From: Bacillus sp. ISL-45
GTDB taxonomy: Bacteria > Bacillota > Bacilli > Bacillales > Cytobacillaceae
Length of the DNA stretch: 64,000 nucleotides
Assembly: GCF_018613195.1 (NCBI RefSeq)
Contig: NZ_JAGGQQ010000001.1
Span: 108,911 to 172,910, forward strand
Direction of reading: 5' to 3'
The translations under genes and the position numbers were made by a program. Each line of letters opens with the position of its first letter. Position 1 is the first letter of the stretch. The notes beneath the pieces are model-generated. The model did not search any database. It saw only the letters and a list, made by a program, of their open reading frames with translations, and had not been told where the DNA came from. Below are positions 3,698-54,315 of the stretch, in pieces.

Positions 3698-6600
3698 TGC
3701 CCTTTTAAACGGCCACCAGTTTGCTTCGCCAAAGTTCTTTACCAGTACAGGGATGAACAACGGCAGCATGATGAATGCGTATAAGAACAATCCAACAAGA
3801 AGGATTGATGCGATTTGCAGCAGGGACATCATGCCTGATGGCATCATTGCCGCGAATGTTCCGCCGAGGATGACAGCAGCCGAAATGATGACTGTTCCCA
3901 TCTTCTTCATCGACAGCAGCATGGCTTCAGAGATTGATAGATTCTTATATTCATTGAAACGGTCCATCAAGAAGATGCTGTAGTCGACTCCAAGGGCAAC
4001 AAGGATGACAAAGGCGAAGAACGGTACTGCCCAGCTGATGCCTGAGTATCCAAGGATATCAACATAGATGACCTCGTTGACCGCCATCGCTGTATAATAG
4101 GTTAAAATCAGTGAGCCGATAATGTAGATTGGCATGATGATCGAGCGGAACAGGAACACCAGGATGATCCCGATCCCCAGCAGCATCAGGATGACCGTCC
4201 GCGAGTAATCCTGGCCGGACATCGTATCAAGGTCGGCGTTCGTGCTCGTGATGCCGCCAATTGCCAAATCTGCGTTCTCAAGCTTCGTCCCTTTCGTCGC
4301 TCGCTCAACTGCTTCCTCGATTTCAGCAACCTGAGCCATCGCTTCATTTGAATAAGGATTCGCTTCGAAAATAACGTCCATCGTCATGACTTTGCGGTCG
4401 TTTGACATATAAACATCGAATACCTGGGTGAATTCTTCACTCTCAAGTACATCAGCCGGCAAATAGAAGCCATTGGAATCCGATTCAGCCAGGCCATCCA
4501 GATACTCCTGTGCAGAGCCAAGGCCTTCAGATACCTGGTTCAACCCGTCCGTACTCTGGCTGAGACCATCTGTAAGTTGTTCAAGCTGGCCTCCCAGACC
4601 GCCAAATCCGGCAAGCAGCTGCTGCTGTCCGGCATTGATTCCGGTCAGGCCATTCGTCAGCCTAGGAAAGTTATCGACAATCTTTCCTTGCCCGTCAGCT
4701 AGCTGATTTAATCCTGACTGCTGCTCTTCGATTCCGTCGATGAGCTGCTGGAGGCCAGGACCGAAGTTTGCCTGCTGTGCCAGAGCTTCGGCAAAGGCTT
4801 GATTTGCTTTGGCCATCCCGCCGGTCAGCTGAGGCAATTGCTCATTAAGCTGCTCCAGGCCTGCTGAAGCTTTTGCCAGCTCACCTTCCAGATAGCCAAT
4901 CTGGTCTTTGATTTGCTGATAGTTTTCGTCTGCTTGTAACGTTTGGTCTCTCTGTTCCAAATAACCAAAAAGCTCGCCATTGGCCTGTGAGATCCCGCCT
5001 GAGAGTTGGGCAATCCCATCTCCAGCCTTTTTGTAGCCGGCTTCCAGCTTTGCCAGACCTGTCTGCATCTCAACATATTTTCCCTGAAGGTCCTTATACC
5101 CAGCAAGCAATGCCTCGGCTCCCGCTTTAGCTTCTGCTAAGCCGGCCTGAATCTGGTCAGAACCAGCAGACCCCTTGCGGATGCCGTTTTCGATTTTTTC
5201 CAGGTTGGTCTGGATTTCACCAAGACCTGACTTAATTTCGGTCGTTCCATTGATTAACTGGTTGATGCCATCAGCTGTACTATCCAGTTCCGGAGCTGAT
5301 TTGGACAGTTCAGATTCTGCTTCCTGAAGACCTTCGCTGATTTTATCCAGGCCTTCTTTGCCTTCTCCAAGTCCTGAACCGAGTGTTTCAGCCTGCTTGG
5401 ATACGAAGAAGTCTTCGATTGGTTCGCCGGTTGGTCTTGTCACCGAGCGAACGGTGTCAACGAGGTCGACCTTTTCCAATTCAGTGCTGATTCTCTCAGC
5501 CAGCTCGATGTATTCTGCCGAATCCATTCTTTCGTCATTTTTCAAAATGACCTGGGTTGGCATTGATTCACCAGGCCCGAAGCTGTCGGCGATTGCGTTG
5601 AAGGCCTTGATTGAGTTTACATCCCCGCTGATTTCATCCAGTGAGTTATAGCTCAACTCCCCATCGTAGGAAAACAGGAATGGTACGCATACTGCCGCCA
5701 CAATCAACAGGCTGAGGAATGGACGAGCCAGTGAGAAGCTGCCGACTGTTCCCCATAGCTTGCTTTCACCATGTTCAGCGCTTTGTTTTGAAGGCCAGAA
5801 AATCTTTTGTCCTAATACCGCCATAAAAAATGGGACAATAGTGAATAATCCGAGCAAGAGCATTGCGACACCAATCGCTACAGCTGCAGCGGACTGATAT
5901 AAAATAAATTCTGAGAATCCTATAGCAGCGAATCCGATCATAACCGCTACACCGCTGAAAAAGACGGTACGTCCCGCGTTCTTGTATGTTGCGACAATCG
6001 CAGCCGGCACGCTTTCATTATGTGTCATCTCTTCCTTAAAGCGGCTGAGCAGCAAAATACAGTAATCCGTTCCAATCCCGAACAAGACGGCAACAAGGAA
6101 AATCTGCGTATAGTTTGAAAGCGGGAAATTTAATTGATCAACAAGCATTGCTACGATTGATTGTGAAACAAGATAGGCCATCCCGACTGTCAATAATGGA
6201 ATGACAGGAGCGACGACAGACCTGAATACCAGCAAAAGCACTACGAGGATAAAGACGACTGTGATACCTTCAGTCTTTTTCAAACCTTCTTCAGAGCTTG
6301 TCATCAGGTCTTCATTGATGAGCCACTGACTTGTGTAATAGTGGTCGACTTCGATATCTTCAATCGTTTCATACAGAAGCTTGCTTACCTCCGCTGGTTC
6401 GCGGTCATTCCAATTGACCGTGACTGAGGTTAAGATCGATTTCCCATCGTCAGAAACAAGCTGTTCCTTAAGGCTTTCTTCATTGAAATGTGTCAGGATA
6501 TCGGTAATCCCGATTTCTTCCCTGTTATCTTCAAGTGCGCGGATTGCTTTCTCCGCTTCCTTGATCTCGTCCTGAGTCAATTTCTTTTCGCTATGGAAGA

Positions 6601-19021: not shown

Positions 19022-19050
19022 AAAATCCACCAACATATGTATTGGTGGAG
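19022..19050 (-). terminator. Terminator that uses the tmRNA 3' end as one stem arm
   Basis: On the minus strand TCCACCAA (the last bases of tmRNA) pairs with TTGGTGGA around TACATATG, followed directly by TTTTTATTTG. The processed 3' CCA lies inside this stem. Confidence 0.7.
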
Positions 19051-19059
19051 ACGGTGGGA

Positions 19060-19332
19060 CGTGCTATTCCATGCTTTCGCCATGGCACTGACTATATCTT
19101 GAACCTGTTTGACCAGGTCCTCCGGCGTATTATGCGAGATGTAGTTTTATCCGGACTCCCGGATAGATCACGCATCCTAGTACTGCCAGGCTGGCAGCCT
19201 ATAAGTCGATACATGGCTGTTGGATTGCTCCACATACCACTCGGCATTGCCCTATCGCTATTCGCGACTTAGGTTTCACCGATAAAGCCGGATTTTCACT
19301 CGCGTGTTGCCACGCAAGGCGACTAATGACTA
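19060..19332 (-). ncRNA. Group I intron in the tmRNA T-loop (273 nt, no ORF)
   Basis: The 5' exon ends in U and the intron ends in G (position 19060), as group I splicing requires. The exon CGAU plus intron UAG can pair with UUAGUCG just downstream, placing a U-G wobble exactly at the 5' splice site (P1). Other core features are a GCGTG-GCAA-CACGC hairpin (19302-19315, P2-like), a P8-like hairpin TATCCGG/CCGGATA near 19149-19166, the conserved P7-type sequence AAGATATAGTC (19090-19100), and a GAAA-capped hairpin at 19069-19085 followed by GTGC/GCAC closing the 3' end. There is no homing endonuclease. Subgroup is not assigned. Confidence 0.9.
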
Positions 19333-19550
19333 ATCGAACCCACGTCCAAAGATATTGGCACTTAAGCTTCTACGAGTGTAGTCGGCATATTGGCGATTCG
19401 CTGGTCCTTTTGCCTACCGACAGGCGGCCGGCCAGCTAGCCTGGTTGTTCTCTTCCTTCATCCTCAGGCGGTGGAATCCGGCGTAGCCCACTTAGAGTGA
19501 GTCCGCTACCCTACCACATGGGCGATGGAGGGGCGAACCGCTATGCAGTA

Positions 19551-19586
19551 TTAAGCTGCGAAAGCGAAGTTGTTGTTTTCTTTGCC
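19551..19586 (-). other. tmRNA tag reading frame
   Basis: From the GGC resume codon the frame reads G-K-E-N-N-N-F-A-F-A-A-stop. With the Ala from charged tmRNA the tag is AGKENNNFAFAA. It ends in Ala-Ala like other proteolysis tags but is shorter than the B. subtilis tag and ends AFAA instead of ALAA. Confidence 0.85.
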
Positions 19587-19767
19587 AGTTATAGGCGTTG
19601 ACGTTTTTACGAGGCCGATCCCCTCGACTCGCCACTTAAGCTCAAACTACCCCTGTCGAATCCGTAACGTCCCCATATAAAAGGCTGCTGTATCCATGAT
19701 ACAGACGTTAGGAGAACTCGGTTAAGCCGAGCATTAAGTTATGTTGTCACTCGTGGTGACAGTTATT

Positions 19768-19795
19768 ATTATAACACACTGAGTACTTTTTTCAA
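19768..19795 (-). promoter_or_regulatory. ssrA promoter
   Basis: On the minus strand TTGAAA (19795-19790) and TATAAT (19773-19768) are 16 bp apart. The start would lie about 85 nt before the mature tmRNA 5' end, giving a leader with three small hairpins (GTCAC/GTGAC, CTCGG/CCGAG, GTATC/GATAC) to be removed by processing. Confidence 0.7.
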
Positions 19796-19823: not shown

Positions 19824-20291
19824 TTACATTTTCTGACGTTCGCGGAATGCACGCTCGATATCACGGCCTGCTTCCTTCTTCTTCAGCGTCTCACGCTTGT
19901 CATAGTTCTTTTTACCCTTACCAAGACCGATTAAAACCTTTGCATACCCATTCTTCAGGTAAATCTTCAATGGCACAAGCGCATATCCTGCTTCCTTCGT
20001 TTCACCGATCAACTGGGCGATTTGGCGTTTGTGAAGCAAAAGCTTCCTTGTGCGCAGCGGATCATGGTTGTAACGGTTTCCCTGTTCGTAAGGGCTGATG
20101 TGCAGATTATATAAGAACAGCTCACCATTATGGACCTTTGCGTATGAATCCTTCAGCTGGACGCGCCCGTTACGGATTGATTTAATCTCTGTTCCCTGGA
20201 GGACGACTCCGGCTTCATACGTTTCTTCAATGAAATAGTCGTGGTTTGCTTTTTTATTCTGCGCGACGACCTTTCCCTCTCCTTTTGGCAT
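19824..20291 (-). CDS. smpB: SsrA-binding protein SmpB
   Basis: A 155-residue OB-fold protein that carries tmRNA to stalled ribosomes. Motifs are [37 protein letters not shown] (residues 14-50), [21 protein letters not shown] and the basic tail [17 protein letters not shown], which enters the ribosomal A-site. Length is normal. It lies directly upstream of ssrA and downstream of rnr, the standard Bacillus trans-translation cluster. Confidence 0.97.
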
Positions 20292-20443: not shown

Positions 20444-22834
20444 CTATTTTCTCTTTTTAGATTTACGCTTCGCGGCTGGTGCGTTCTCAAAGAACTTTTT
20501 CTTCTTGCTCTTTGGTTTTGAACCGGAGCCTGAACCGGTACCGGAGCCATTTCTGCCCCCTCCTGATCCTTTTCCACCGCCTGAACCTCTGCCGCCTTGC
20601 TTGCCTTCTTCTTCTTTACCGCGGCGCGGCTTTTTCTCGCTGCTGCCCGTCTTGAAGATCTTTGGCTGTGCCGGCCGCTCACGTCTTGGCGTGCCCTTCA
20701 TGCCGACGATTTCAAAATCAATTGAGCGCTCATCCTTGTTTACCTTGATGACTCGGACAGTAATTTCATCTCCGATTCGGAAGACATTTCCTGTTCGCTC
20801 GCCAATCATCGCCAGGTGGCGTTCATCATAACGGTAATAATCATCCGTCATGTAGCTGACATGTACAAGGCCTTCGATTGTGTTAGGAAGCTCGACGAAC
20901 ATCCCGAAGTTCGTGACAGAGCTGATGATGCCATCGTATTCCGTCCCAATCTTGTCTTCCATGTATTCCGCTTTCTTAAGCTCATCTGTTTCACGTTCGG
21001 CTTCAACTGCGCGGCGTTCCATGTTGGATGAATGCTCGGCAATATCAGGCAGTATCGCATTCCATTTTTCCTTCGTTGCCTGGTCGAGCTTGCCCTCGAT
21101 CAAGTACGTCCTGATCAAACGGTGGACAATCAAGTCAGGATAACGACGAATTGGTGATGTGAAGTGCGTGTAGAACTCTGTTGAAAGACCAAAGTGTCCG
21201 AGGCTTTCAGGATAGTATTTCGCCTGCTGCATCGAACGGAGCATGACAGTTGAAACGACCATTTCCTCCGGTTTTCCCTGGACTTCCTCGATGATTTCCT
21301 GCAGGGCTCTTGGGTGTACTCCATTTGCGGATCCTCTGACAAGGTATCCGAAGTTTGTAATGAAATCAAAGAATTTTCTAAGCTTATCCTCTTTTGGATC
21401 TTCGTGAATTCGATAGATGAATGGCACATCGAGCCAGTGGAAATGCTCTGCAACCGTTTCGTTCGCTGCCAGCATGAATTCTTCAATCAGCTTTTCAGCG
21501 ACAGAACGCTCTCGCATAACGACATCCGTTGGGTGGCCTTCTTCATCAACCAATACCTTTGATTCTTTAAAATCAAAATCGATGGCTCCTCTTTCCATCC
21601 TTTTTTTACGAAGGATAGCAGCAAGCTCCTCCATCATCTCGAACATTGGCACAAGAGATTCGTAACGTGAGCGCGTTTCTTCGTCTTGATCGACGAGAAT
21701 CCTGTTCACATCGAAATACGTCATCCGCTCCGTCGTCTTGATGACACTCTGATAGATTTCATGATCTACCACTTGTCCATCTGGAGTGATCTCCATATTA
21801 CAAGACAGCGTCAGTCGGTCGACCTTCGGATTCAGCGAGCAAATACCGTTCGATAAGCGGTGCGGAATCATTGGGATGACCCGGTCAACCAAATACACAC
21901 TCGTGGCACGGTCTTCTGCTTCACGGTCAATCGGTGAGTCCTCGGTTACATAGTACGTAACATCGGCGATATGGACACCAAGTTTATAATTGCCGTTTTC
22001 AAGCCTTGTGACCTGAACTGCATCATCAAGGTCCTTTGCATCAGCGCCGTCAATTGTGACGATGACTTCTTCACGCAGGTCGCGGCGGTTCGCAATCTCA
22101 CTTTCATTGATCTGGTCCGGCGCTTCATTCGCCTGCTGGAGTACCTCATCTGGAAACTCCATTGGCAGTCCATGCTTGTGGATGACGGAAAGGATATCGA
22201 CGCCAGGGTCATTTTTATGGCCGAGAATCGCGGTAACCTCACCCTCTGCACTTTTGCGTCCCTCAGGATAGCTCGTCAGTTTTACGACGACCTTATGCCC
22301 TTCGACTGCACCCATCCCTGACTCTTTTGGAATGAAGATGTCACTCGTGAACTTTTTATCATCAGGAATCACAAACCCAAAGTGCTTGCTTTCGGTATAG
22401 GTACCAACGATTTGCGAGACACCTCTCTCAATGATGCGTACAACAGTGCCTTCACGGCGCTGCCCAGAGCTGTCTGATGACACTCGTACAAGGACTGTAT
22501 CCCCATTCATTGCATTGCTTGTTTCATTAGGCGGGATGAAGACGTCATCCATTCCCTGCTCTTCAGTGATGACAAAAGCAAATCCCTTGGCATGGGCACT
22601 GAAACGGCCGCGAACGAGGTTCATTTTTTCAGGCAGACCATATCGGTCACTTCTAGTCCTCACGACCAGCCCCTTTTCCTCCATGACCACTAGCGCTTTA
22701 ACAAATTCCTTGAATGTTGAGGAGTCCTCGATCCCAAAGGCGCTTTCCAGTTCCTGAACCGTAAGAGGTTTGTAAGCTTCATCCTTCATATAATGCATTA
22801 GCCTGTCTATATGGCCTTTAATATTCTCATCCAT
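20444..22834 (-). CDS. rnr: Ribonuclease R
   Basis: A 796-residue 3'-5' exoribonuclease. In order it has an amino-terminal winged helix (1-75), two cold-shock domains (about 80-230), the RNB catalytic domain (about 255-590) with the [14 protein letters not shown] metal-binding Asp cluster and the [17 protein letters not shown] motif, an S1 domain (about 635-715), and a Lys/Arg/Gly-rich tail (about 730-796) with a GSGGG-type low-complexity stretch. It degrades structured RNA, including transcripts released by trans-translation, which fits the adjacent smpB and ssrA. Confidence 0.97.
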
Positions 22835-53995: not shown

Positions 53996-54315
53996 AGAAA
54001 AGCGCATGCGCCTTATCCAGCCCTGACAAGCGCTGTCCGCCTAAAACCGCCACGTCCTGTGGCTGGCGGATCAGCACATCGTGTGCCGCAGAGGGCCGAC
54101 CGGTGAAGTCGTTCTTTGACTTCAATGGGCGGACCGAACTTGAAAAGCGTAGGCGACTGCCCAACTCCGACAAGCGCTGGAGGGCCTGACAGTGAAGTCG
54201 TTCTTTGACTTCATTGGCAGGACCGAAGCGTCTCGAGGAGTTAGGAGCCTCAGCTAGACAAGCGACTCGAGGAGCTAGGCGCTGAAGCTGGACAATTCTC
54301 GAAGTGAATTTTATA
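53996..54315 (+). repeat. Dispersed repeat family C, copy 2 (longest)
   Basis: From AAAAGCGCATGCGCCTTATCCAGCCC to GCTGGACAATTCTCGAAGTGAATTTTATAT. It contains GTGAAGTCGTTCTTTGACTT twice, so part of the unit is duplicated internally. It separates hprK from lgt. Confidence 0.8.

Follow-up and report, generated by a model that had tools for sequence, protein, structure and literature searches.

A small group I intron in the T-loop of the sole tmRNA gene found in Bacillus sp. ISL-45 and its scattered presence among close relatives

The only tmRNA (ssrA) gene found in the genome of Bacillus sp. ISL-45 is interrupted, and the interruption is very probably a small, endonuclease-free group I intron that would excise itself to restore the T-arm. 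The structure of the gene, compensatory change across homologous introns and the distribution of the insertion among relatives are described below, together with the histories that could have produced its scatter within the genus.

Results

A 273-nt Insert Interrupts the tmRNA T-Loop

The gene lies in a 64,000-nucleotide stretch of the genome (the window, to which positions refer). The pre-tmRNA occupies 632 nt of the minus strand, from the mature 5' G at 19674 to the CCA end at 19043. Its 273-nt insert (19332-19060) sits after nucleotide 59 of the T-loop (GTGGG TTCGAT) and is followed by TCCCAC and the acceptor strand (Table 1). The tmRNA model RF00023 matches 19666-19331 on the minus strand with 162.4 bits (cut-off 47), and the match ends at the insert. 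ARAGORN made no tmRNA call in the 64-kb window or in the unspliced gene; given the insert-free sequence, it called a 359-nt tmRNA with the tag GKENNNFAFAA. Excision in silico, joining 19333 to 19059, generates this RNA with the T-arm GTGGG-TTCGATT-CCCAC, and the spliced form, as read from the sequence, has a full T-stem and an acceptor stem of seven pairs, one of them G.U. The gene limits (19043..19674), the 273-nt intron and the 359-nt product given in the initial annotation were exact to the base, as judged from the sequence and from ARAGORN on the spliced form. A permuted, two-piece tmRNA was also considered and rejected: the RF04321 match scored 42.8 bits (cut-off 47) and overlaps the standard-order match, and the gene order is standard.

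Table 1. Features of the interrupted tmRNA locus, in window coordinates
Feature	Position	Strand	Evidence or remark
tmRNA (ssrA) 5' exon, 342 nt, to U59 of the T-loop	19333..19674	-	RF00023, 162.4 bits; ARAGORN on spliced form
Group I intron, 273 nt, after T-loop nucleotide 59	19060..19332	-	RF00028 E=5.5e-7, sub-threshold; covariation over 93 introns; same borders in 41/101 genomes
tmRNA 3' exon, 17 nt: last T-loop base, 3' half of T-stem, acceptor strand, CCA	19043..19059	-	sequence; ARAGORN on spliced form
Tag reading frame GKENNNFAFAA-stop	19551..19586	-	ARAGORN on spliced form
P1: exon CGAU + intron UA (19336-19331) with UAGUCG (19325-19320)	19320..19336	-	100% of cells paired in 93 introns; letters partly fixed by search pattern
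P2 hairpin, GCAA loop	19300..19317	-	two-sided changes in 7/7 pairs; 100% paired
P3 (19292-19287 with 19126-19121), pseudoknot with P7	19121..19292	-	two-sided changes in 4/6 pairs; 100% paired
P7 (19207-19204 with 19093-19090), guanosine-site helix, 3' strand in AAGATATAGTC	19090..19207	-	invariant in 93 introns; 3' strand within search pattern
Promoter-like TTGAAA-16-TATAAT, TG ahead of second hexamer	19768..19795	-	consensus scan, 11/12; no proof of function
Intrinsic-terminator-like hairpin, 5' arm includes tmRNA CCACCA end	19026..19049	-	consensus scan
smpB, protein partner of tmRNA, directly upstream, intact	19824..20291	-	NF003843 and TIGR00086 above cut-off (NCBIfam equivalogs)
rnr	20444-22834	-	minus-strand neighbour of smpB

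The 5' arm of the terminator-like hairpin is the CCACCA end of the tmRNA itself, so termination and the mature 3' end overlap. Variable hairpins of the AAAGCATAAGTTTGCC...GGCAGGCTTATGCTTT type were seen by eye at 19003-18968 and downstream of the tmRNA in several related loci (L042-L062); they vary among close relatives and, again by eye, resemble small interspersed repeats. Elsewhere in the window, a T-box leader (270-512; 123.7 bits) lies ahead of a frame at 450-1940 that looks by eye like a branched-chain amino acid transporter, and a Bacillaceae-1 RNA match at 54025-54087 is barely over its cut-off (38.7 versus 35 bits).

A Single tmRNA Gene Was Found in the Genome

The initial annotation had named a second intact ssrA elsewhere as a finding that would count against it. 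A search of the whole ISL-45 genome (G000; 4.6 Mb in 27 contigs, 99.84% complete) gave one tmRNA above cut-off and no second, in a draft whose gaps could hold another copy. The 20 weaker matches to the tmRNA model score at most 28.3 bits, span ~75-121 nt or 18 nt and are tRNA-like in appearance. Because the sole tmRNA found carries the intron, ribosome rescue by tmRNA in this organism should depend on intron removal, barring a copy in a gap.

Three of the 101 genomes sampled (see below) have a second tmRNA match far over the cut-off: G037 (locus L094), G048 (L097) and G049 (L098). The other tmRNA copy of G037 and G049 is introned, and these two hosts might escape dependence on splicing.

Two further group I introns were noticed in the ISL-45 genome. 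One (L324, G000:C27:408500-412500; match at ~1802-2167) scores 95.4 bits, more than the tmRNA intron, and lies inside a flagellin gene, where it cuts into the C-terminal domain. The third match (L325, G000:C24:350000-354000; ~1781-2109) scores 81.4 bits, lies in the gene for the large subunit of ribonucleotide reductase and overlaps an open reading frame (1080-1862, 260 aa) with an HNH endonuclease domain.

The Insert Has the Anatomy of a Group I Intron

The Rfam model RF00028 (Intron_gpI) matches 19342-19069 on the minus strand with 34.7 bits (E=5.5e-7 in a 901-base search). A group I match of the kind that the initial annotation proposed to look for is therefore present, as is the tmRNA match, and the group I score lies below the curated gathering score of 50, which is a search cut-off and not a biological feature. 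At the curated score, none of 20 introned relatives scanned reached 50 bits. A lenient scan (E up to 0.01) of eight further introned loci returned sub-threshold matches of 34.5-45.1 bits in five and no match in three. To judge from these sequences, the RF00028 cut-off seems to miss the tmRNA-intron class in general.

Covariation was measured on a manually drawn fold of the window intron, comprising P1, P2, the P3/P7 pseudoknot, P4, P5, P6, P6a, P7.1, P7.2, P8 and P9, named after the usual group I scheme. The alignment (A1) contains 93 introns, all distinct: 37 of the 41 present in sampled genomes and 56 of the 80 at named loci; those outside it are identical copies, longer introns or introns missed by the extraction pattern. 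The 93 were extracted with patterns that fix the exon TTCGAT and the terminal CAYG, and part of the gathering used a pattern containing the 3' strand of P7. Some of the conservation seen at the splice-site and P7 letters is thus a product of the selection; the covariation found for P2, P3, P5, P6, P7.2 and P8 is independent of it. Across the alignment, 94.2% of cells are paired versus 89.1% after shuffling, two-sided changes occur at 42 of 82 pairs versus 24.9, and 456 cells carry two-sided changes versus 137.4. None of 500 shuffles matched the observed value on a single one of the five measures, and pairing fell to 29-42% when partners were displaced by 1-3 columns.

The individual helices differ in how they bear on this result. 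P8 shows two-sided changes in five of its six pairs, and the two helices between the P7 5' strand and the P3 3' strand (helices 9 and 10) are 97.3% and 98.0% paired. P7 is unvarying in the 93 introns and consequently has no independent covariation support. Helix 11, which forms the top of P7.2 in the fold drawn from the window, is not conserved, pairing in 54.2% of cells, and a P5 pair (columns 73/128) forms in just 21 of the 93 introns. P1 consists of 6 bp (CGAU|UA with UAGUCG) and places a U.G at the 5' splice site; the last base of the intron is G. Five of its six pairs do not vary, and the loop-side pair is C-G in place of A-U in one intron. The initial annotation had described a 7-bp P1; its U.G and terminal G stand, and its length does not, the seventh pair being a G.U that was not counted. 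GNRA loops, which it also described, were read from the sequence as GCAA on P2 and P6a and GAAA on P9.

The intron alone folds more stably than its shuffles (z=-3.49). The hallmarks of a group I intron are present, namely the U.G in P1 and the terminal G, and core helices P3-P9 with a P3/P7 pseudoknot backed by covariation. Together with the RF00028 match, the covariation over 93 introns bears out the initial identification of a group I intron in the tmRNA T-loop. The extra stem-loops P7.1 and P7.2, presumably the defining feature of what we take to be subgroup IA, are present in the predicted structure, and the intron would fit that subgroup. A homing endonuclease of the usual size does not fit inside 273 nt, and none was found in the intron. 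Among 40 introns measured, lengths range from 268 to 285 nt and the longest open stretch is 94 codons.

The Intron Recurs at One Site in Many Relatives

The sample comprised 101 genomes, ISL-45 and 100 relatives. The intron was extracted from 41 of them, ISL-45 included, with the same borders. In all 41 the base at -1 (nucleotide 59) is U, read without fixing that base; the terminal G was fixed by the extraction pattern. ARAGORN called none of 40 introned genes unspliced and all 40 once spliced (the contig of G009, the omitted genome, starts within the gene). The 61 intact gene copies, from 59 genomes plus the second copies of G037 and G048, carry C59 in 50 cases and U59 in 11. G049 and G014 were counted as introned; G075, whose gene meets a contig end, and the second match of G049 (L098) were left out of these counts.

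Scans of 193 family genomes with exact patterns detected an intact T-arm with C59 in 65 genomes and one with U59 in 23; the 105 genomes with neither pattern are an upper bound for introned genes. A pattern for counting introned genes directly was abandoned after it also caught tRNA-like sequences (GGGTTCGATTCCC...AGTCGCC), and the intact-T-arm patterns were used instead. By hand count, the intact T-arms found in genus g24 (61 genomes) are 4 with C59 and 13 with U59. Intact genes there are mostly U59, so the coupling of intron absence with C59 is not general.

That the insert is dead or misassembled and the tmRNA a pseudogene could be argued from the sub-threshold RF00028 score. This reading is so improbable that it was rejected: 41 of the 101 genomes carry the insertion at the identical base, including several single-contig listings (G008, G010, G015 and G016), and the intron alignment shows strong compensatory change. 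The mature RNA also looks maintained in a way that speaks against a pseudogene, with only 10 variable columns in the 341 nt from the 5' end to A58 across 19 members of the genus.

A mobile carrier was sought in three collections. Five records of a phage collection matched, all through parts of the 5' exon only; no plasmid with the intron was found, and viral_contigs, scanned with one exact pattern, gave none. BLAST with the ISL-45 intron, which recovered 41 of 41 positive controls, found no remnant close to any of the 63 loci from which no intron had been extracted, a result that does not separate histories of loss from histories of gain.

Presence of the Intron Is Scattered Within the Genus

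Among 21 genomes of the genus, 13 have the intron and 8 lack it, the latter with C59 in seven cases and U59 in one. On a host tree built from rpoB and gyrA (19 genomes, 11 with and 8 without the intron; G003 and G009, both introned, had no usable gyrA), its presence requires six changes, a number also forced by the starred branches. Shuffled labels required 6.3 changes on average and 262 of 500 shuffles were as low, so the scatter is as if random. A tree of the neighbouring rnr and smpB genes (20 genomes) requires seven changes, four of them forced by starred branches, and 414 of 500 shuffles were as low. G004 and G005 are sisters on the rpoB+gyrA tree (100/100) and differ in the intron; on the rnr+smpB tree, G004 groups with ISL-45, G017 and G019 (93/99), apart from G005. 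The discordant placement of this pair indicates that the tmRNA neighbourhood has probably recombined.

U59 accompanies the intron in six of six independent pairs (sign test p=0.031, the minimum possible with six pairs), a coupling to be expected in part, given the requirement of the intron for U at -1. Gain or loss of the intron has occurred repeatedly in the genus, accompanied by a change of base 59 with one exception (G002).

This pattern bears on the suggestion in the initial annotation that splicing is a control point. As a regulatory switch, the intron would answer GTP, Mg2+ or temperature and set the supply of tmRNA; all mature tmRNA would pass through splicing if the gene is the sole copy, and the general need of group I chemistry for guanosine and Mg2+ offers a means. 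The idea nevertheless gained no ground and is very improbable. No extra conserved domain was seen by eye in the intron alignment, close relatives manage without the intron, and its presence in the genus is as scattered as random labels, unlike that of a retained control device.

Intron and Host Divergence Somewhat Favor an Old Intron

Divergence of the intron follows that of the host (Mantel r=0.85, p=0.0002, 11 genomes; r=0.67, p=0.0008 with four dropped, 7 genomes). The tree of the intron alone has no starred branch, its best being 89/94, and the 200 bases upstream track host groups more than intron state, as judged by eye. We lean towards a history in which the intron is old in the genus, was inherited vertically and was lost many times, with C59 genes arising by allele replacement or a later U-to-C change. 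This account is somewhat favored by the correspondence of intron and host divergence, by G002, which lacks the intron yet keeps U59 as a clean loss would, and by the excess of U59 among intact genes of g24 (13 to 4). It sits less easily with C59 in seven of the eight intron-free genus members, which clean loss would not leave, and with the lack of a starred branch in the intron tree.

Repeated gain, in which C59 genes received the intron from a donor that was always a close relative and the exon base was co-converted to U, is a less probable history, if a credible one. C59 predominates among intact genes (50 of 61 in the 101 genomes; 65 versus 23 of the 193 family genomes), and the probable recombination of the neighbourhood, seen in the placement of G004, would suit such transfers. 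The intron has no endonuclease, however, its distances follow the host tree, and the one pattern scan of viral_contigs gave no phage carrier. Repeated loss of an old intron is the slightly preferred history.

A further and rather doubtful proposal is that position 59 acts as a lock in the genus, C59 alleles being immune to the intron because a C-G pair would replace the splice-site U.G, and U59 alleles being open to it; the intron and the C59 allele would have replaced each other at least six times, nearly in step. If true, it would make this tmRNA a natural model of intron spread limited by one host base.

An unusual arrangement was seen in Paucisalibacillus globulus (L228). An intact U59 tmRNA lies at ~6071-6431, and ~200 bases further on (region to ~6700) stands a vestige that combines the closing part of a tmRNA intron with a duplicate 3' exon and a further terminator-like hairpin. 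No integrase-like gene was noticed by eye among seven open frames. Possible explanations are loss caught in the act, replacement of an introned gene, or an element that has come and gone.

Discussion

Intron-form tmRNA was reportedly described by Williams in 2002. A recent survey, which cites Williams 2002 for the earlier-known site, lists 883 unique intron-form tmRNAs, all interrupted in the T-loop and most at position 7 (Nawrocki, Petrov and Williams 2025; PMC11915505). According to the same text, position-7 cases are mainly from Bacillota and are spread over 21 phyla, endonuclease genes occur in 36 of 883 (95.9% are without), and the 843 founding introns average 293 bp. As read from the published numbering, insertion after nucleotide 59 is the published position 7. 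The ISL-45 gene shares with these cases the host gene, the T-loop site, the -1 U paired with G in P1, the terminal G, the lack of a homing endonuclease, a similar length and a class membership mainly within Bacillota; against the published description, no anatomical difference was found. By site and boundary rules read from its sequence, the gene is an ordinary member of the published class. The initial annotation had called the class possibly known but rare, reported in a few bacteria. Known it is; its rarity is contradicted by the 883 published examples, those at the main site in 21 phyla, and by the 41 introned genomes among the 101 sampled here.

Some group I introns are known in general to require proteins, and the anatomy of the ISL-45 intron is neutral on whether its splicing, if real, needs a host protein. 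We consider such a requirement improbable, since PMC2729099 states that the tmRNA intron of Clostridium botulinum had been shown to be self-splicing. That group I intron is 287 nt long, between exons of 338 and 24 nt; it has tmRNA exons and a similar length in common with the ISL-45 intron and differs in species, a likeness drawn from its description only (PMC2729099). Self-excision remains the preferred reading of the ISL-45 insert. A more distant parallel may be drawn, again by description only, with other bacterial introns. Group I introns of the Anabaena type sit in the anticodon loops of bacterial tRNA-Leu; like the tmRNA intron they interrupt a tRNA-like structural RNA, and they differ from it in site and host RNA. 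Among the matches listed in the literature searched, as far as their available text goes, no report of genus-level turnover of tmRNA introns or of the C59/U59 coupling was found. What seems new here is the local pattern, the scatter within the genus and the coupling with base 59; the class itself is well known.

Group I splicing chemistry requires guanosine and Mg2+. In the mechanism we propose, transcription would start at the gene's own promoter, run to the terminator-like hairpin and yield the whole 632-nt precursor, as the consensus matches suggest. The intron would fold into the structure backed by covariation and bind guanosine at P7. By analogy with its class, a two-step, guanosine-initiated reaction would then cleave after the U of the P1 U.G and join the exons. 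Splicing would rebuild the T-arm, and established tmRNA biology predicts that tRNA-type end processing, alanylation and SmpB-dependent ribosome rescue would follow.

Standard annotation may miss the gene in this form, given that ARAGORN called none of 40 unspliced genes and that 20 of 20 relatives fell short of the RF00028 cut-off. The mix of introned and intron-free species offers a natural set for studying the cost of an intron, gain and loss without an endonuclease, and a single exon base as a bar to insertion. For many Bacillaceae, the findings support a picture in which the sole RNA found for ribosome rescue becomes functional only after a ribozyme step.
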